From Bryobacterales bacterium (GTDB lineage Bacteria; Acidobacteriota; Terriglobia; Bryobacterales; Bryobacteraceae): a stretch of 64,000 bases of DNA. Numbering within the stretch: the stretch's first letter is position 1; each line of letters starts with the position of its first letter. The position numbers and the translations under genes are program-made. The stretch is from the NCBI GenBank assembly GCA_003142185.1, contig PLOR01000118.1:62001-126000 (forward strand), in the 5' to 3' direction. Below the pieces are notes generated by a model, which did no database searches, was not told the origin of the DNA, and saw nothing but the letters and a program-made list of their open reading frames with translations. Shown here piece after piece: positions 10,483-59,950 of the stretch.

Positions 10483-10541
10483 GTGGCGCGGGCTGTCAGG
10501 CCCGCTGAGTCGAGAGTCATCTCGACTCTTCTTGGCCACTA
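10483..10541. repeat. PAL-B half element
   Basis: Contains the left end cgtggcgcgggctgtcagg and the gtcgaga hairpin as gagtcgaga-gtca-tctcgactc, a perfect 9-bp stem. It lacks the second hairpin and the right terminus of the full PAL-B at 22829. Located between convergent genes, where it may also serve as a terminator stem. Confidence 0.7.
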
Positions 10542-22377: not shown

Positions 22378-22492
22378 CGAGGCCGGTGGCGACGTCCGAT
22401 TGAGACGTCCGGTTGCGGACGGGTGCGGATTTCGCCATAATACGGCCAGATCCACTTTACATTTATGTCCGGTCACCGAGAGGAGATCCGCC

Positions 22493-22825
22493 TTGCGAAG
22501 CACGCTGGTTTCGGCCTTGGCAGCCTGCGCTGATCCATCGCGTCGTTTCGGTGCCCGCCGCTTCCTGGCGGGACTTTCCACCGACGAAATGCGGTTCATC
22601 GCCGAGTTCCTGGGAGCCTCGGTTATCGAGGCTGGCCCGCAATCCGGTTGCTCGCGGGCCGAACTGGGAGCGCGGATCGCCGAATTCCAGATTTCGCGTG
22701 CTGATTCGCGCCGTTCGGGCCCCGACCTCGAACACAAAATGATCGTCCTTCTCGAATTCCTTTGCCACTCGCATATCCGCCAGGCCCCTATGGCCATGCG
22801 CGCCGGCCAAGCCCAGTTGTCGTGA
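22493..22825 (+). CDS. Small conserved-looking protein of unknown function
   Basis: 110 residues from TTG 22493, chosen because a good ribosome binding site (gagaggag at 22478) lies 7 bp upstream. The N-terminal segment is Arg/Ala-rich and includes ARRFLAGLSTDEMRFIAEFLGASVIE, a helical stretch that looks conserved; the C-terminal half has Cys and His residues (LEFLCHSH) but no motif I know. Ends just before a PAL-B element at 22829. No function can be assigned. Confidence 0.45.
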   Translation: MRSTLVSALAACADPSRRFGARRFLAGLSTDEMRFIAEFLGASVIEAGPQSGCSRAELGARIAEFQISRADSRRSGPDLEHKMIVLLEFLCHSHIRQAPMAMRAGQAQLS

Positions 22826-22828
22826 ACC

Positions 22829-22942
22829 GTGGCGCACGCACTCGTGCGTGCCGTGTCGAGACTCGTCTCGACATGTCTTTCGCTTTACCTCGCCCCGCGT
22901 CGGCATGAGTGCCGACGCGGCACGCACGAGTGCGTGCGCCAC
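22829..22942. repeat. PAL-B complete element
   Basis: Perfect 25-bp inverted termini, left beginning gtggcgcacgcactcgtgcg and right its complement ending gcgtgcgccac. Between them are two hairpins: gtcgagactcgtctcgac and gtcggcatgagtgccgac. Total about 114 bp, with no ORF inside. The same architecture recurs at 29192, 59823 and, in half form, at 10483. Confidence 0.9.
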
Positions 22943-22966
22943 GTCGGCCGAGGTGCCCACGGCGCC

Positions 22967-25900
22967 CTACTCGATCTCGATCAGCAGGTCCTTGGCTTCC
23001 ACATGCTGCCCCGGCTGCACCAGAACCTGCGTCACCCGGCCGCCCACCGGCGCATAAACCGTGCTCTGCATTTTCATCGCTTCCATCACCAGCAGTTGGT
23101 CGCCTTTTTGAATCACCTGGTTCATCTGCACCGCGACGGTCGATGCCACGCCGGGAATCGGCGCGCCGATCTGGCCGGGCTGATTCGGATCGGCTTTGGG
23201 CACGGCCCGCTGCTTCACGTCCAGGCTGCGGTCGCGGACGGTGACTTCGCGGGGCTGGCCGTTGAGATCGAAGAAGACCGTGCGCGTGCCATCGGGGTGC
23301 GGTTCGCCCACGGTGAGAAACTTCACCACCAGGGTGTTGCCGGGCTCGAGTTCGACGGCAACATCGGTAGACCGCTCCATGCCGTAGTAAAACTGCGGCG
23401 TCGGGAGCACGTCCACGTCGCCCCACGCCTGTCGATTGTGCGCGCACTTGACGAAGACCTCCGGGTACATCAGGTAGCTCAGCACCTCGTCACGGGCCGG
23501 CCGGCGGCCGATCTTCCTTTCGAGCGCAGCCGCTGTGTCCTCCAGGTCCACCTTCGGCAAGTGCGCGCCGGGGCGCCCTTTGTGCGGCTTGGCGCCGCGC
23601 AGAACGATGGTTTGCAGCTTCTTCGGCCAGCCGCCCTCCGGCTCGCCCAGTCCACCCATGAACATGTCGATGACCGACGTGGGAAGCGTGAAGTTATGCT
23701 CCGGCGTGAGGAAGCCGAATTGTTCCATGGTCATGTTGTGGGTGGCCAGGAAGATCGCCATGTCGCCCACCACTTTGCTGGAAGGCGTCACCTTGACGAT
23801 GTCGCCGAAGGCCATGTTGACGTCGGCATAAGCGCGCGCGAGTTCGTGCCAGCGAGCGCCCAGGCCCATCGATTCGGCCTGTTCCTTGAGGTTGGTGTAC
23901 TGCCCGCCCGGCATCTCATGAAGGTAGACCTCGGCGCTGCCGGACTTGGGGCCGGTATCGAACGGCGCGTAGAATTCGCGCACCACTTCCCAGTAATCCG
24001 CGCACTGGTTGAGCGCGTCCAGATCGAGCCCGGTCGCGCGCCGCGTGTGATCGAGCGCGGCCACGATCGAATTGAGATTGGGCTGGCTGGTCTGCCCGCT
24101 CATGGAAGCGATGGCGGCATCGGCGATGTCGACGCCCGCGTCGGCGGCCTTCAGGATCGAGGCTGCGTTGACGCCGCTGGTATCGTGCGTATGAAAGTGG
24201 ATCGGGATGCCGACTTCCTGGCGCAGCGCCTTCACCAGCTTTTCCGCCGCATAGGGACGGCACAGCCCCGCCATGTCCTTGATGGCGAGCACGTGCGCGC
24301 CCATGCGCTCCAGCTCTTTGGCCATGCGGACGTAGTAGGCGAGCGAATACTTGTCGCGCGCCGGGTCCAGAATGTCGCCGGTGTAGCAGATGGCGGCCTC
24401 GCACACCGAGCGCGTCTTGCGCACCGCTTCCATCGACGCCTTCATGTTGGGCAGCCAGTTGAGCGAATCGAAAATGCGGAAGATGTCGATGCCTTGCGCC
24501 GAGGCTTCGTAAATGAACTCGGCCACCACGTTATCCGGATAAGCCGTGTAGCCGACCGCGTTGGAGGCGCGCAGCAACATCTGAAAACAGATATTGGGGA
24601 TGGCTTCGCGCAGGCGGCGCAGGCGGACGAACGGATCCTCGTGGAGGAATCGCATGGCGACATCGAAGGTGGCGCCGCCCCACATCTCCAGGCTGAAAAG
24701 ACGGTGCAGCCGGTGCGCCACGAAGTTGGCGATGCGCAGCATGTCGTAGGTGCGGACGCGGGTGGCGAGCAGCGACTGGTGGGCGTCGCGGAAAGTGGTA
24801 TCGGTGATCAGCAGGCGCCGCTCGGCAGCCGCCCAGGCGGCGAATCCCTGCGGCCCCAGCTTGTCGAGCAACTGGCGCGTGCCGTCGGGCGGCGCGGCGG
24901 CCACGTGCCGCGGCACCGGCGCGGCATCGAGGCGCGTGGGACGCGGCTTGCCGGCCACGGCCGGATTGCCGTTGACGATCACGTCCGCCAGGTAGCTGAG
25001 CAGTTTGGTGGCGCGGTCGCGGCGTGGTGCGAAGCGAAACAGCGCCGCGTTTTCCTCCAGCCATCGCGTGGTCGCGCCGCCCGCCTGAAACTCCCGGTCG
25101 TTGACCACGTTCTCCAGAAACTGGATGTTGGTTTTGACGCCGCGCACGCGAAACTCGCGCAGGCAGCGGTCCATGCGCTGGCAGGCCTGCCGAAAATCGC
25201 GTCCCCAGGCCGTGACCTTCACCAGCAGGGAATCGTAATACGGCGTGATCACCGCGCCCGAATATGCCGACCCTCCGTCGAGCCGGATGCCGAATCCTGC
25301 CGGCGAACGGTAGGTGGAGAGCTTGCCGTAATCCGGCACGAAGCCGTTGGCCGGATCCTCGGTGGTGATGCGGCACTGCATGGCGTAGCCGTACAGCGGA
25401 ATCTTCTCCTGCGGCGGCAGGTCCATCTCCGCGCCATGCAATTCCAGGCCCTGCGCGACCTGGATCTGCGCTCGTACCAGGTCGATTCCAGTCACCATTT
25501 CGGTGACGGTGTGTTCCACCTGGATGCGCGGGTTGACCTCGATGAAGTACCACTCGCCCGAATCGGCATCCACCAGAAACTCGACCGTGCCCGCGTTGTA
25601 ATAGCCGGCCGCGCGCGCCAGGCGCACGGCGGCATCGGCCAAAGCGGCGCGCAGGGCCGGATCGAGCGAAACCGCCGGCGCCACTTCCACCACTTTTTGA
25701 TGGCGGCGCTGCACCGAGCAGTCGCGTTCATAGAGGTGCAGAATGTTGCCGCGGCGGTCGCCCAGAATCTGTACTTCGATGTGGCGGGCGCGGCGCACGA
25801 AGCGTTCCAGGAAGACTGCGTCGTTGCCGAAAGCCGCTCCGGCTTCGCGGCGGGCCTCCTCGAGGCGCCCCGCGAAATCGGCTGGCCGGTCCACCACCCG

Positions 25901-26404
25901 CATACCGCGCCCGCCGCCGCCGAAAGCCGCCTTGATGATGAGCGGGAAACCGATCTCGCCGGCGATCTTCTCCGCCTGCTTGGGATTGCGCACCGGCTGC
26001 TCGGTGCCGGGCACCACCGGAATGCCGGCCATTTCCGCCAGGCGCCGCGCCGCAGTCTTGTCGCCGAGCAGTTCCAGCAGTTCCGCGCCGGGGCCTATAA
26101 AAGTGATGCCGGCATGATCGCAGGCGCGCGCCAGCGCCGGGTTCTCGGAAAGAAAGCCATAGCCGGGATGGATGGCATCGACGCCCTTTTCCTTCGCCAG
26201 TTCCACGATGCCTTCGACATCCAGGTAGGCCTCCACCGGGCCCTTGCCCTGGCCGATGAGATACGCTTCGTCGGCCTTGAATCGATGCAAGGCCAGGCTG
26301 TCTTCCTGCGAGTAGACAGCCACCGTGCGCAGCCCCAGCTCGTTGGCTGCGCGCAGAATGCGAATCGCGATTTCGCTGCGATTGAGAGCAAGAAGCTTGT
26401 ACAT
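22967..26404 (-). CDS. pyc: Pyruvate carboxylase
   Basis: 1145-residue biotin-dependent enzyme making oxaloacetate from pyruvate, bicarbonate and ATP, an anaplerotic step. Domains in order: biotin carboxylase (about 1-450; HPGYGFLSEN, GGGGRGMRV, EVNPRIQVEHTVTE), carboxyltransferase (about 520-900; RDAHQSLLATRVRT, HTHDTSG), allosteric linker and biotinyl carrier domain with MEAMKM near the C-terminus. I begin at ATG 26404 (MYKLLALNRSEIAIR); the earlier ATG at 26443 adds a Pro-rich stretch not seen in the family. Monocistronic, flanked by PAL-B and PAL-A elements. Confidence 0.97.
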   Translation of the reverse strand: MYKLLALNRSEIAIRILRAANELGLRTVAVYSQEDSLALHRFKADEAYLIGQGKGPVEAYLDVEGIVELAKEKGVDAIHPGYGFLSENPALARACDHAGITFIGPGAELLELLGDKTAARRLAEMAGIPVVPGTEQPVRNPKQAEKIAGEIGFPLIIKAAFGGGGRGMRVVDRPADFAGRLEEARREAGAAFGNDAVFLERFVRRARHIEVQILGDRRGNILHLYERDCSVQRRHQKVVEVAPAVSLDPALRAALADAAVRLARAAGYYNAGTVEFLVDADSGEWYFIEVNPRIQVEHTVTEMVTGIDLVRAQIQVAQGLELHGAEMDLPPQEKIPLYGYAMQCRITTEDPANGFVPDYGKLSTYRSPAGFGIRLDGGSAYSGAVITPYYDSLLVKVTAWGRDFRQACQRMDRCLREFRVRGVKTNIQFLENVVNDREFQAGGATTRWLEENAALFRFAPRRDRATKLLSYLADVIVNGNPAVAGKPRPTRLDAAPVPRHVAAAPPDGTRQLLDKLGPQGFAAWAAAERRLLITDTTFRDAHQSLLATRVRTYDMLRIANFVAHRLHRLFSLEMWGGATFDVAMRFLHEDPFVRLRRLREAIPNICFQMLLRASNAVGYTAYPDNVVAEFIYEASAQGIDIFRIFDSLNWLPNMKASMEAVRKTRSVCEAAICYTGDILDPARDKYSLAYYVRMAKELERMGAHVLAIKDMAGLCRPYAAEKLVKALRQEVGIPIHFHTHDTSGVNAASILKAADAGVDIADAAIASMSGQTSQPNLNSIVAALDHTRRATGLDLDALNQCADYWEVVREFYAPFDTGPKSGSAEVYLHEMPGGQYTNLKEQAESMGLGARWHELARAYADVNMAFGDIVKVTPSSKVVGDMAIFLATHNMTMEQFGFLTPEHNFTLPTSVIDMFMGGLGEPEGGWPKKLQTIVLRGAKPHKGRPGAHLPKVDLEDTAAALERKIGRRPARDEVLSYLMYPEVFVKCAHNRQAWGDVDVLPTPQFYYGMERSTDVAVELEPGNTLVVKFLTVGEPHPDGTRTVFFDLNGQPREVTVRDRSLDVKQRAVPKADPNQPGQIGAPIPGVASTVAVQMNQVIQKGDQLLVMEAMKMQSTVYAPVGGRVTQVLVQPGQHVEAKDLLIEIE

Positions 26405-26497
26405 ATGGTGGGGCCGCGGCGGCAATCCCGGTCCGCCGGTCAATTTACGAGGATAGCAAAGGCGAAACTGCCTACCAAGATGCTGGCTTCGTGGCTT

Positions 26498-26522
26498 TGG
26501 CAGGCGGAAGCGCCTGCGCCAC
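26498..26522. repeat. PAL-A palindrome
   Basis: tggcaggcggaagcgcctgc followed by gccac, same core as 2504. Lies between the pyc start and the stop of the PLP enzyme gene. Confidence 0.85.
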
Positions 26523-26532
26523 TTTCAGCCTG

Positions 26533-27711
26533 CTACGCAAATGCCTGCTCGATGTCGGCGATGATGTCTTCGACGGCTTCGATACCTACCGAGAGCCGCA
26601 CCAGGTTATCGCGGATGCCGACGCGCTCGCGGTGCTTCGGGGCCAGATCGCGGTGCGAACTCATGGCCGGGTAGAGGATCATGCTGTGCACGTCGCCGAG
26701 CGAAGTGGCGCGCACCACCAGTTGCAGCCGGTCGAGGAAGCGGAAAATCTCAGGCCGGCCGGCATCGCGAATTTCGAAGCTGACCATGGCGCCATAGAGG
26801 CCGGCGGCAAACAAGCGGCGGATGGCGGGAGCGTCGGGATGCGCCGGGTCGGCGGGGAAATGCACCCGCTCCACTCTCGGGTGGCTGCCCAACCAGGAGG
26901 CCACGCGGCAGGCATTGGCGCACTGGCGCTCCATGCGCAGCGGAAAGGTCTTAATGCCGCGCATGGAAAGGTAGCTCTCAAACGGCCCGAGCACGGGGCC
27001 GACGATGCGCGCCAGCGTGCGCAGAGCATCGAAGTGGGCCGCGTCCGTGACTACCGCGCCGCCCAGCACATCGCCGTGACCGGCCAGGTACTTGGTGAGG
27101 CTGTGCACGGAAAAGCTCGCGCCCAGATCAAGCGGCCGCACGATCAGGGGCGTGGCGAATGTATTATCGACCACCAGGGCGGCGCCGGCGGCGCGCGCGA
27201 TTTCGGCGATCTTGTCGATCTCGCCCACGCGCAGCAGCGGATTCGAGATGGTCTCCATCAGGATGCACCCGGGCTTGGCGTGGCTGACCGCTGCGCTCAG
27301 TGCGTCCAGGTTGCAGATATCGACGAAACGCACCTCCACGCCGCGAGGCTCCAGCACATTCAGCAGCAGCTTGGTGGACGCACCGTAGAGCGCGTCGGCC
27401 GCCACGATGGACGCGCGCCGGTCGGTGAGCGCGGTCTCGACCGCCATCTGCACCGCCGTCATTCCCGAGGCGCAGGCCAGCGCGCCGTGGCCGCCTTCGA
27501 GCGCCGTCACCAGTTCTTCCAGCGCCGCCGCCGTGGGATTGTCGTAGCGGGCGTAAGAGTAGCCGGCCTGCTCCATGCCGATTACGCGGTCCAGTTCGTC
27601 GGTGGTGTCATAGAAGAAGCTCGACGCGGCATAAATGGGCGTCGTCACCGGAACCGCGCCGGTCGGCTTGCGCCGGTCGCCCGCGTGAACAGCTTGGGTG
27701 TGGATCTTCAC
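26533..27711 (-). CDS. Cys/Met metabolism PLP-dependent enzyme (trans-sulfuration type)
   Basis: 392 residues, fold type I. The PLP-binding Lys207 lies in SVHSLTKYLAGH, with YSYARYDNPT, ACASGM and the Asp in VVDNTF as other cofactor contacts. It fits cystathionine gamma-synthase, gamma-lyase or O-acyl-homoserine sulfhydrylase; the sequence alone does not separate them. The start is 2 bp from the cysS stop, so the two genes are probably co-transcribed, with cysS upstream, which suits a link between cysteine use and methionine synthesis. Confidence 0.92.
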   Translation of the reverse strand: MKIHTQAVHAGDRRKPTGAVPVTTPIYAASSFFYDTTDELDRVIGMEQAGYSYARYDNPTAAALEELVTALEGGHGALACASGMTAVQMAVETALTDRRASIVAADALYGASTKLLLNVLEPRGVEVRFVDICNLDALSAAVSHAKPGCILMETISNPLLRVGEIDKIAEIARAAGAALVVDNTFATPLIVRPLDLGASFSVHSLTKYLAGHGDVLGGAVVTDAAHFDALRTLARIVGPVLGPFESYLSMRGIKTFPLRMERQCANACRVASWLGSHPRVERVHFPADPAHPDAPAIRRLFAAGLYGAMVSFEIRDAGRPEIFRFLDRLQLVVRATSLGDVHSMILYPAMSSHRDLAPKHRERVGIRDNLVRLSVGIEAVEDIIADIEQAFA

Positions 27712-27713
27712 GG

Positions 27714-29114
27714 CTATTTCCTTTTCCAGCGGACGCCGGATTTGGTGTCTTCGAGAATGATGCCCATGGCCAGCAACTCGTCACGGATTTGGTCGGCCCG
27801 CGCGAAGTTGCGCGCTTTCTTGGCGGCGTTTCGTTCGGCGATCCGCGCCTCGATTTTGGAATCGTCATCACCGGCGTCGGCGCCACTCGGCTTCAGCACG
27901 TCGAAAACGGCATCGAATTGCTCGAAGAACCGCACCGCCGCGGCCCGGTTGTCGGCGCCGAACTGGCCCGCATCCATGGCGCTGTTGGCGTCGCGCGCGT
28001 ATTCGAATGCGGCCGCCAGCGCCTCGGCGGTGTTCAGGTCGTCGTCCAGGCTGTTGACAAAGGCCTGCGCGGCGGCCTCGGTGCGCGCTGCCATCTTGTC
28101 GTCGCCGCCTTCCGGGAGTTTCTCCGTGTCCAGCCGCAGCTTGAAGTTGCGCAGCCTTTCGATGGCCATCTGCGCCGCCTGCAAGCCGTCGAAAGTGAAG
28201 TTCAACGACTTGCGGTAGGGCACCGAGGCCAGCAGGTAGCGAATCGCTTCCGGCTTGTAGCCGCGCCCGATGAGATCGCGCAGCGTGAAATAATTGCCGA
28301 GCGACTTGGCCATCTTCTGCCCTTCCACCATCAGAAACTCGGCATGCAGCCAGAAGCGCGAGAATTGTTTGCCGGTCAGCGACTCGGACTGGGCAATCTC
28401 GTTTTCATGATGCGGAAAAATCAGGTCGACCCCGCCGGCGTGTATGTCCAGCGTTTCGCCCAGGTACTTGATGGCCATCACGGAGCACTCGATGTGCCAG
28501 CCTGGCCGCCCCGGGCCGATTTTGGTATCCCAACTGGTCTCGCCTTCCTTAGGCGCCTTCCACAGCGCGAAGTCGCGTGCGTCGGCCTTTTCGTATTCAT
28601 CCACGTCGACGCGCGCGCCGGCCAGGTTGCCGCTGAAATCGTTGTGCGAGAGCTTGCCGTAGCCTGGAAACGTGGCGATCCGGAAGTAAACTGAGCCGTC
28701 GCTTGTGTACGTGTGCTGGCCGGCCGTGAGACGCGCGATCGCATCCGCCATGTCGCCGATGTGGTCGGTGGCTTTTACCAGATGTTCGGCCACCTCGAGG
28801 CGCAGCGTGGCGCAATCCTCCAGGAACGCTTGCGTGTATACGGCGGTGTATTCGCCCAGGGTCTTTTTTTCGGCCGCCGCGTTGCGGATGATTTTGTCAT
28901 CCACGTCGGTGATGTTCATCACGTGATCCAGGCCGTAACCGCTGGCTCGCAGCCACCGCCGCAGAATGTCGACGAAGGTGAAGGTGCGGAAGTTGCCAAT
29001 GTGGGCGTAGCTGTAGACGGTGGGACCGCAGGTGTACAAGCGCACCGTGTTATCGCGCGCCGGGTGAAACTCCTCGACGCGTTGCGAGAGGGTGTTATAA
29101 AAACGCAGCGACAT
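27714..29114 (-). CDS. cysS: Cysteinyl-tRNA synthetase
   Basis: 466-residue class I aminoacyl-tRNA synthetase charging tRNA-Cys. Zinc-binding Cys29 (TCGPTVY), the HIGN signature at about 38-41 and KMAKSLGN at about 267-274 are complete. Further zinc ligands are in HIECSVMA and HHENEIAQSE, and the DALR/anticodon region fills the C-terminus. ATG 29114 starts 2 bp from nothing upstream but a 77-bp gap to PAL-B. Followed at 2 bp by the PLP enzyme gene. Confidence 0.98.
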   Translation of the reverse strand: MSLRFYNTLSQRVEEFHPARDNTVRLYTCGPTVYSYAHIGNFRTFTFVDILRRWLRASGYGLDHVMNITDVDDKIIRNAAAEKKTLGEYTAVYTQAFLEDCATLRLEVAEHLVKATDHIGDMADAIARLTAGQHTYTSDGSVYFRIATFPGYGKLSHNDFSGNLAGARVDVDEYEKADARDFALWKAPKEGETSWDTKIGPGRPGWHIECSVMAIKYLGETLDIHAGGVDLIFPHHENEIAQSESLTGKQFSRFWLHAEFLMVEGQKMAKSLGNYFTLRDLIGRGYKPEAIRYLLASVPYRKSLNFTFDGLQAAQMAIERLRNFKLRLDTEKLPEGGDDKMAARTEAAAQAFVNSLDDDLNTAEALAAAFEYARDANSAMDAGQFGADNRAAAVRFFEQFDAVFDVLKPSGADAGDDDSKIEARIAERNAAKKARNFARADQIRDELLAMGIILEDTKSGVRWKRK

Positions 29115-29191
29115 AATTGCAGGGAAATTTCATCGTAGCAGAAGGTCCGCTGTCCCTTAGGCTTCGTCACGACATAACTATGCCAAGTCCC

Positions 29192-29303
29192 GGTGGCGCA
29201 CGCACTCGCACGTGCCGTGTCGAGACTCTTCTCGACACCTGCGCGTGAGACGCCGGGCGTCGGCAAGAGTGCCGACGCGGCACGCACGAGTGCGTGCGCT
29301 ACC
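29192..29303. repeat. PAL-B complete element overlapping a stop codon
   Basis: Left end ggtggcgcacgcactcgcac, right end cacgagtgcgtgcgctacc, with hairpins gtcgagactcttctcgac and gtcggcaagagtgccgac. The right terminus runs into the GH28 gene: bases 29299-29301 (cta) supply its TAG stop. Confidence 0.88.
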
Positions 29304-30657
29304 GGAAAGCGAAGTCGACGAACTTGCCGGTGCAGGCGTTTTTCACGCTCTTTCCGGCACTCCCGGTGACTGTCACGTCCGTGCCCGTCACCTTGAGATT
29401 GAAGGCGCCCGGCCCGGTATCAACCTCTGCATGCTTGGCCGACACCTGGATATTCGCCGGATCGTCGAACAGGACGCCGTCGAACCGAATCCCCAGGCGA
29501 TGCGCCGCATCCAGACCCTCCAGCGTCACCTTGCCGCCGCCTTCCACGCGCACATTGCGGACGACGATGTTGCGGAAGACCGGCGGCTTGCTATATTCCT
29601 TGCTGACGTGCGCGCTGTAGTTGGTGTCCATCAGAATCGGGTTGGCCGTGTCGCGGATGCAGACGTCCTCGAACACGACGTCGTCGACCAGCCCGCCGCG
29701 CGTGATGTTCGACTTGATGCGCAGGCCGTTATCGGCGCCGTCGATGGAGAGGTCCGCGACGCGAATGGCGCTGGCGCCGCCATCCGTCGGGCTGCCGATC
29801 GACATGCCGTGCCCCGTATAGAAGTGGTTATGCACGATGCTCATGTGGGTGGTTGGCGCGCCCGCCGGCGCCTTGATCGCCACCTGGTCGTCGCCGGTGT
29901 GGATGTAGCAATGGGTAATGGTCACGTTGGTCGAATTGCCGGGATCGATGCCGTCGGTGTTGCGCGCCCGCTCCGGCGACCAGATCCTGACGCCCCACGC
30001 CGTGAATCCATTGCCAACGTTGTAACCCACGTGAAAATTTGGCGAATTCATCAGCGTGATGCGGTAGAGGGTGAAGTTGTCGCAGCGGCGCAGCGCGATC
30101 AGCCGCGGGTTGTTCTGGCTGCCGCCCGCGCGAGCCACGTCCGCCAGGTTCCACCAACTGATGTTTTGCCCGAGAATCGTCTCCCCGCCGCGCCCGTCGA
30201 TCACGCCGTCGCCCATGACGCCCGCGTCAGCCACGCCGTCGCCATCGATCAGCGCCTTGCAGCCGTGGCCTTCCTCGGTGATCGTGCCGCAGACGCCCGG
30301 CTTCAGATCGTAGTCGCGCGGGTTCCGCGAGGCGAACAGATACGCGCCGCGCGCCACCACCAGCACGACGCCGCGCCGCAATTCGAGCGGGCCGGAGAGA
30401 AACACGTCGGTCCGCTCCGATGTCCGATCGAGCACCACCGCCCGGCCGGCCGGGCACGCGTCCAGCGCCGCCTGGATGCGCGTCGTGTCCAGCTTGCCTT
30501 CGTCCTCTGGTGCGATCGACGCCGCGGCGCGCCCGATCCTCGCTTTGAGGGTCTCGCAAGCGGGCGGAATCGAAGGTTCGACGACTTTCCGTGTATCCTG
30601 GGCAGCGGCCAGGACGACGAAACAAATCCCCGCAAACGCGGTAGCAAGTACCTTCAT
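29299..30657 (-). CDS. Glycoside hydrolase family 28 (polygalacturonase-like), secreted
   Basis: 452 residues, signal peptide about 1-19 (ends VLAAAQ). Right-handed parallel beta-helix of the GH28 type. Catalytic Asp motifs NTDGID and GDDQVAIK, the GHGMSIGS His and the RIKS Lys region are in order at about 215-310. It would cleave galacturonan in pectin or a related plant polymer. Its stop codon comes from a PAL-B element, and the C-terminus has a poorly conserved tail. A second GH28 lies 1.7 kb upstream on the same strand. Confidence 0.93.
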   Translation of the reverse strand: MKVLATAFAGICFVVLAAAQDTRKVVEPSIPPACETLKARIGRAAASIAPEDEGKLDTTRIQAALDACPAGRAVVLDRTSERTDVFLSGPLELRRGVVLVVARGAYLFASRNPRDYDLKPGVCGTITEEGHGCKALIDGDGVADAGVMGDGVIDGRGGETILGQNISWWNLADVARAGGSQNNPRLIALRRCDNFTLYRITLMNSPNFHVGYNVGNGFTAWGVRIWSPERARNTDGIDPGNSTNVTITHCYIHTGDDQVAIKAPAGAPTTHMSIVHNHFYTGHGMSIGSPTDGGASAIRVADLSIDGADNGLRIKSNITRGGLVDDVVFEDVCIRDTANPILMDTNYSAHVSKEYSKPPVFRNIVVRNVRVEGGGKVTLEGLDAAHRLGIRFDGVLFDDPANIQVSAKHAEVDTGPGAFNLKVTGTDVTVTGSAGKSVKNACTGKFVDFAFR

Positions 30658-59822: not shown

Positions 59823-59950
59823 CGTGGCGCGGGCTGTCAAGCCTGCAGCGTCGAGATTCGTCTCGACGTTGCTTGGCGGCGGGGCAGCGAACGTCACAAA
59901 GAAATGTCGGCACGACTGCCGACACAGCACGCAAGACTGCGCGCGCGACG
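59823..59950. repeat. PAL-B element, divergent copy
   Basis: Left cgtggcgcgggctgtcaagc, hairpins gtcgagattcgtctcgac and gtcggcacgactgccgac, and a right end that is only partly complementary to the left. A decayed version of the element at 22829. Lies between convergent genes. Confidence 0.75.

Follow-up and report, generated by a model that had tools for sequence, protein, structure and literature searches.

The 114-bp element in the window (the whole 64,000-nucleotide stretch of DNA that was analyzed) is, with high confidence, a REPIN, namely a non-autonomous unit of two inverted REPs, most likely moved by P0001, a RAYT that is encoded once in the same genome (G000) between the same ends. 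This identification as a REPIN with a cognate RAYT follows from its copies, the matching ends, the fold of the enzyme, a deletion intermediate and copy positions that differ between species. The first-pass annotation had not recognized a named element here, which the REPIN (inverted REP doublet) now provides; it had suggested a non-autonomous element mobilized by a REP-associated transposase, and this suggestion is supported by the copies, the empty sites and a Y1/HUH gene inside the same ends.

The anatomy of the element was observed directly by comparison of its arms (Table 1). The inverted ends are perfect over 25 bp, as had been annotated, the first 25 nt being identical at both ends. Each arm is approximately 45 nt long (about 22828–22872 and 22899–22943) and consists of the foot GTGGC, a hairpin GCACGCA-CTCN-TGCGTGC and a second hairpin of approximately 20 nt, with CTCN loops in the tandem hairpins. 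Because the 25-bp end is itself a hairpin (GCACGCA-CTCG-TGCGTGC) and two inner hairpins are added to these, the element contains four hairpins and not the two originally described, although both of the inner stem types described are present (GTCGAGA on the left, GTCGGCA on the right). The 23-nt end pattern had four matches in the window (≤3 mismatches) against a mean of 0.00 in 100 shuffles, and folding of the whole element as single-stranded DNA gave z = −10.9 on either strand, which 0 of 200 shuffles equalled. The GTRG tetranucleotide (GTAG or GTGG) is present at the 5′ foot of the hairpin, and AC or CC was favored before the foot (106 of 155 feet). The idea that the foot is a guide sequence, where GTGG versus GTAG predicts the adjacent base, was rejected because no association was found (Fisher p 0.50). 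A scan of the window at Rfam gathering thresholds returned 0 matches, and nothing was matched in a plasmid collection by distant blastn.

Table 1. Coordinates of the REPIN, its parts and the related elements in the window
Feature	Positions	Strand	Basis
REPIN, 114 bp: two inverted two-hairpin REPs with a spacer between	22829..22942	.	
Left foot GTGGC (the REP's GTRG tetranucleotide)	22829..22833	+	
Left outer hairpin GCACGCA-CTCG-TGCGTGC	22834..22851	+	
Left inner hairpin TGTCGAGA-CTCG-TCTCGACA	22854..22873	+	
Variable spacer	22874..22897	.	comparison of 30 copies
Right inner hairpin CGTCGGCA-CTCA-TGCCGACG, read on the minus strand	22898..22917	-	
Right outer hairpin GCACGCA-CTCG-TGCGTGC, read on the minus strand	22920..22937	-	
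Right foot, GTGGC read on the minus strand	22938..22942	-	
Second copy, same family as 22829-22942	29193..29302	.	end-pattern and copy search
Related REPIN, second family; GTCN loops in three of four hairpins, the fourth TTCG; right foot decayed to GTCG	59824..59949	.	
Single two-hairpin REP unit, second family	10483..10530	+	

Similar architecture had been reported at three other places in the window. The copy placed at 29192 is real and belongs to the same family, with the span given in Table 1. The one placed at 59823 is indeed a related REPIN; it begins at 59824, however, and is a member of a second family with mostly GTCN loops, and its right arm has family-1-like stems, yet GTCN loops in both hairpins. 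At 10483, the supposed half form proved to be a lone second-family unit and not half of the 114-bp element. All four window copies or units are extragenic, one of them overlapping a stop codon: the right foot GTAG of the second copy (29299–29302) provides the TAG stop of a GH28 gene (29299–30657, minus strand).

Counting in this and related genomes, as first proposed, revealed many dispersed copies. In G000 (5.79 Mb, 119 contigs), the 23-nt motif of the outer hairpin had 206 matches genome-wide (≤3 mismatches), against 0 for the backwards control. An element search of G000 yielded 159 candidates, of which 40 were scored and 40 matched; these 40 copies gave 80 rows because the element also matches its own reverse. 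An arm profile (E ≤ 0.05), applied to 836,894 bases of G000 selected for their proximity to known copies, detected 120 arm units in these 837 kb, 102 of them in 51 inverted, foot-outward pairs and 18 as singles. Fifty of the pairs, which include the second-family element at window 59824, were short (matched span 89–117 bp), and one measured 675 bp. In G001, a genome of the same genus, 63 units were found in 1,282,537 bases that were partly chosen round copies (19 pairs and 25 singles). Element matches (E ≤ 0.001) occurred in 12 of 61 relatives including G000: in 10 of 37 genomes of its own family (f1), in 2 of 2 of f2, in 0 of 18 of f3 and in 0 of 4 others.

The 675-bp pair (L036:1215–1889) encloses the Y1/HUH transposase gene P0001, between arms of 54 nt that are 85% complementary and lie 569 nt apart; a transposase with matching ends, the search for which had been recommended, is therefore present. 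G000 contains seven matches to PF01797, and only that at L036 has the outer-hairpin motif on both sides (1 and 2 mismatches, with up to 6 allowed). The gene is uninterrupted and encodes 201 residues, of which approximately 180–195 are encoded by the right REP. P0001 scored 28.2 bits against Pfam Y1_Tnp PF01797 (cut-off 23) and 73.3 bits against NCBIfam REP_Tyr_transpos NF047646, the latter under a cut-off of 80 that is a naming threshold and not a biological definition. Its Y1/HUH domain has the catalytic His-x-His and Tyr, and across an alignment of 15 relatives there is no variation at H94-V-H96, F131-W132, E135, D138, R142 and Y153. The best solved structure by sequence was 4er8 (TnpArep; E 0.041). 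A moderately confident structure model (pLDDT 74.9) had its best Foldseek match in the same entry (E 1.6e-7), the complex of the E. coli RAYT with a REP hairpin, with a loose fit (TM 0.50, rmsd 6.2); the ISDra2 and IS608 enzymes came next by fold. Relatives of P0001 were encoded at 23 loci, 20 of them acidobacterial (many Bryobacteraceae or Bryobacterales), one assigned to “bacterium” and two planctomycete. A 325-bp derivative, L271:724–1048, retains the left end and a truncated right end, and of the transposase it keeps residues 1–41 and those from 156 on. It is an internal deletion on the way to a gene-less element and links the P0001 gene to the short elements. In G031, the inner stem of the REPs that flank the transposase (L279) recurs in one arm of the REPIN at L041. 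G001 matched P0001 only in one 25-residue piece, which overlaps a REP; with many copies and only this match in a genome that is 91% complete, the element may no longer move there, or the assembly may lack the gene. The transposase of the second family is a 62%-identical paralog on contig C51 of G000, with the same ends on either side (L033). A third REP family (GGTAGGACAG..CTGTC; L269:891–940) adjoins a family-1 REPIN, and its transposase is likely to be that at G000:C109:185452 (RAYT locus L035). Among 30 transposase loci, flanking inverted repeats exceeded the best of 10 shuffles at 23 and did not at 7.

The nature of this enzyme bears on whether the element is instead an ordinary MITE, i.e. 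a deleted DDE insertion sequence whose perfect 25-bp ends are terminal inverted repeats and whose mover is a DDE transposase. Its size, perfect ends and dispersal fit a MITE, but the gene enclosed by such ends at L036 encodes a Y1/HUH enzyme, and a DDE enzyme, which binds double-stranded DNA, has no need of hairpin ends with conserved loops. Moreover, target duplication was not above the shuffled level. Among 57 copies whose two feet are intact, direct repeats at the feet were not conspicuous (2-mers, 3 vs 1.68; 3-mers, 0), 6-mer repeats numbered 1 vs 0.04 with a shuffle maximum of 2, and none was longer. We consider a MITE of this kind extremely improbable.

As suggested at first annotation, we looked for empty sites, and found them by comparing G000 with the sibling species G001, the matched flanks being mostly 74–92% identical. 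Both flanks of 7 of the 51 G000 pairs were present in the sampled part of G001, where this family was found at two of the seven sites (as a single unit at that of L229:7157 and as a pair at that of L233:406) and not at the other five. The site of L231:5282 holds a second-family unit in G001 (L193:8606), and the remaining four (L227:9624, L236:9799, L224:13778 and L215:19577) have no arm-profile unit. Two of these are clean empty sites, at L227:9624 (gap of 63 vs 44 expected) and L236:9799 (57 vs 46). The L224:13778 site contains, from L155:4313 on, a different two-hairpin GTGG-footed REP with loops CCCA and CCCT that match within the end, and the L215:19577 site contains other DNA. In the reverse comparison, 3 of 19 G001 pairs could be tested, and two of the three are without this family in G000: the site of L137:9725 is clean and empty, that of L191:1353 is occupied by an L034-type GTAG REP (L213:14291–14577), and L142 is the shared L233 site. 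Clean empty sites thus total three, two in G001 and one in G000. Three of the testable intergenic sites hold different REP families in the two species. Insertion boundaries cannot be placed to the base because the empty sites are too diverged between the genes. For the 114-bp element itself, only the left gene has a G001 counterpart (L125:4324–4742, 81%), with no REP unit after it; for the copy at 29193, the left flank was matched over 1446 nt and the right flank by eye only, and no REP is there. Since the copies are dispersed and their positions differ between G000 and G001, the element is neither confined to this region nor fixed.

Gene order also differs around the window element. When G001 L125:1483–4742 was compared with window 22405–29140, the block corresponding to window 26528–29140 (cysS) was followed directly by the counterpart of the element's left gene, the pyruvate carboxylase gene not lying between them in G001. 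On the same G001 sequence, a direct repeat of approximately 29 bp that includes a gene's stop codon brackets a stretch with a G001 REPIN (L125:17472–17688).

The differing positions also weigh on the reading that these sequences are now fixed regulatory hairpins, acting as a 3′ mRNA barrier or a bidirectional terminator, with their mobility in the past. Each of the four window copies or units is at the 3′ end of one or more ORFs, and three of them are between convergent ORFs, although two of those ORFs (157 aa and 204 aa) have no Pfam match; such roles have been credited to REPs elsewhere (PMC8266576), and the 25-residue piece is all that matches P0001 in G001. Against this, copy positions differ between the sister species and an uninterrupted transposase gene persists in G000. 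A fixed regulatory role is compatible with a REPIN, and we judge it unlikely, although a possibility to be kept in view.

Under the REPIN reading, and on the model of E. coli and S. maltophilia, a TnpAREP-like enzyme would recognize the folded single strand via foot and loop and would cut the REP strand with its catalytic tyrosine. The doublet would then be carried or copied to a new intergenic site without target duplication. Single-strand binding, cleavage, action in trans and a replication-linked mechanism are taken from other REP systems, and the case for mobility is a comparison of two species in which no movement itself was seen. The pair forms a well-defined REPIN/RAYT system in a genome close to Bryobacteraceae: its enzyme gene is uninterrupted, one deletion intermediate is preserved, and some of its sites are empty in the sibling species.

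The arms also carry a record of selection on structure. In a set of 28 arms, 25 of them distinct, that was hand-picked for diversity from eight genomes and locus L064 (nine sources), the two stems were paired in 99.7% of cells and both sides changed in 9 of 15 pairs. Stem covariation was 0.352, compared with 0.100 ± 0.015 in shuffles, none of 500 being as high, and slid registers reached at most 0.066. The loops are nearly fixed while the stems vary. In family 1, CTC was found in loop 1 of 82 and loop 2 of 62 of 84 in-register units of G000 (20 of 104 out-of-register units dropped) and in 35 and 29 of 39 in G001 (16 of 55 dropped), and in the second family GTC was found in 21 and 19 of 22 in G000 (10 of 32 dropped) and in 7 and 8 of 12 in G001 (4 of 16 dropped), counts that are partly circular because the family assignment used whole-unit profiles including the loops.

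A similar regularity was found between the two hairpins of an end. From 49 locus rows, 20 loci with two-hairpin ends were retained after four repeat rows and the rows without such an end were dropped; these include related, non-independent loci, although no fewer than four distinct loop words come up repeatedly. On average, the loop cores of the two hairpins had 3.85 consecutive nt in common, vs 2.58 with the loci shuffled (0 of 5000), and sharing of the outer stems at the same loci was not beyond shuffling (0.365 vs 0.415). Loop matching between the hairpins was poor at L065, L070, L075, L076 and L277. Loops correlated with RAYT similarity in a Mantel test (r 0.32, 0 of 5000), which is weak support for the loops because the outer stems correlate too (r 0.26, 0 of 5000); the partial protein L084 inflates the nearest-neighbor list of this comparison. 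In the S. maltophilia REP, the loop is critical and a change of its first base from G to C abolishes cutting, as reported in PMC8266576. We tentatively propose, from sequence comparison and at somewhat less than even odds, that each REP end may be a double binding site read by one RAYT via its loops, with the same loop word in both hairpins and different stems. The word would vary by RAYT (CTCN, GTCN, TTCA, CCCN, TGGCA), and the first loop base, C vs G, may be what separates the two RAYT/REPIN systems in this genome. Families that differ at this base would be expected where two enzymes have to keep their substrates separate. In the literature searched, subscription papers and figures being outside its reach, we found in print neither the shared-loop rule, nor the first-base difference between the two families of this genome, nor this family itself. 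RAYTs with two-hairpin ends and matching loops form a natural set that makes REP recognition directly testable.

A subset of copies has further symmetry outside the feet, with a single junction inside a larger palindrome (TTAGGGCCTGTCANGAAATAACC...CGAC / REPIN / GTCG...); as judged by eye, the REPIN can face either way with respect to the long and the short outer arm. One possible reading is that the REPIN is cargo in a larger mobile unit, namely an outer palindrome (TTAGGGCCTGTCANGAAATAACC...) served by a transposase of its own. Outer-arm matches numbered 25 genome-wide against 1 for the control, and at least one outer arm was found beside 17 of 51 G000 pairs and 7 of 19 G001 pairs, with 0 at control positions, of which only the G001 count is independent, the G000 flanks having served to train the model. 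Elsewhere, outer arms adjoin a different core, and three near-identical REPINs of G021 (L038, L049 and L057), whose flanks of approximately 35 bp are common to all three, have a different outer palindrome in common (CTAGCCGGCATTTCTCACAGACG). However, outer arms are lacking at 34 of the 51 G000 pairs, among them the window copy; of 17 transposase loci, only L072 (p 0.02) has an outer inverted repeat at p < 0.03, the other 16 being negative, that of P0001 among them (L033 and L074 are borderline at p 0.035 and 0.045); and the end of the outer palindrome is absent (≤5 mismatches) from all five PF01609/PF13358 (DDE) loci. Furthermore, REPs inside larger palindromes have already been published: PMC3733652 reports REP dimers in palindromes of A. 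variabilis, T. roseum and H. neapolitanus, and states that core-less palindromes were not found in A. variabilis and H. neapolitanus. We therefore regard a larger mobile unit as very unlikely, and retain the REPIN. Outer arms with TTAGGGCCTGTCANGAAATAACC also occur without a REPIN, at G000:C113:26860–26930 (L257:1501 on), window 11222 (L254), L258, L264, L267 and, in G001, L124:12554–12658; they hold no core (L257), a different hairpin core (CCGCTCCCT..GGTCGCGGCTCCGA) or a 28-bp single-hairpin core.

The kind of element described here is already known, since REPINs, RAYTs, GTGG feet, acidobacterial tyrosine transposases, double-palindromic ends and REPs in palindromes have all been published. 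In the parts of these papers available for comparison, REPINs (PMC3116915) share with our element the inverted REP pair, conserved outer ends, less conserved spacer, intergenic dispersal and RAYT partner; one REP per end is described there, whereas tandem two-hairpin REPs give four hairpins per element here. RAYTs and REPtrons (PMC2817692, PMC6006769 and PMC8266576) are likewise described with a Y1/HUH gene between inverted REPs and a GTRG foot, and residues W, Q, D, H and R of P0001 align with E. coli RAYT residues listed as contacting GTAG, D replacing E; P0001 differs in falling below the NCBIfam RAYT cut-off. The TIRYTs and TIRtrons of Acidobacteria (PMC3733652), compared by description only, are also acidobacterial tyrosine transposases with inverted ends, which the legend to Figure 9 calls “double palindromic TIRs”, but most TIRs are described as unrelated to GTAG REPs, in contrast to the GTGG/GTAG foot found here. 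Finally, the Class 3 TnpA(Y1) of Solibacter usitatus, as outlined in PMC6006769, is similarly acidobacterial and associated with hairpins in high copy number (about 600), but its foot is CnGA, whereas that of the present system is GTRG.
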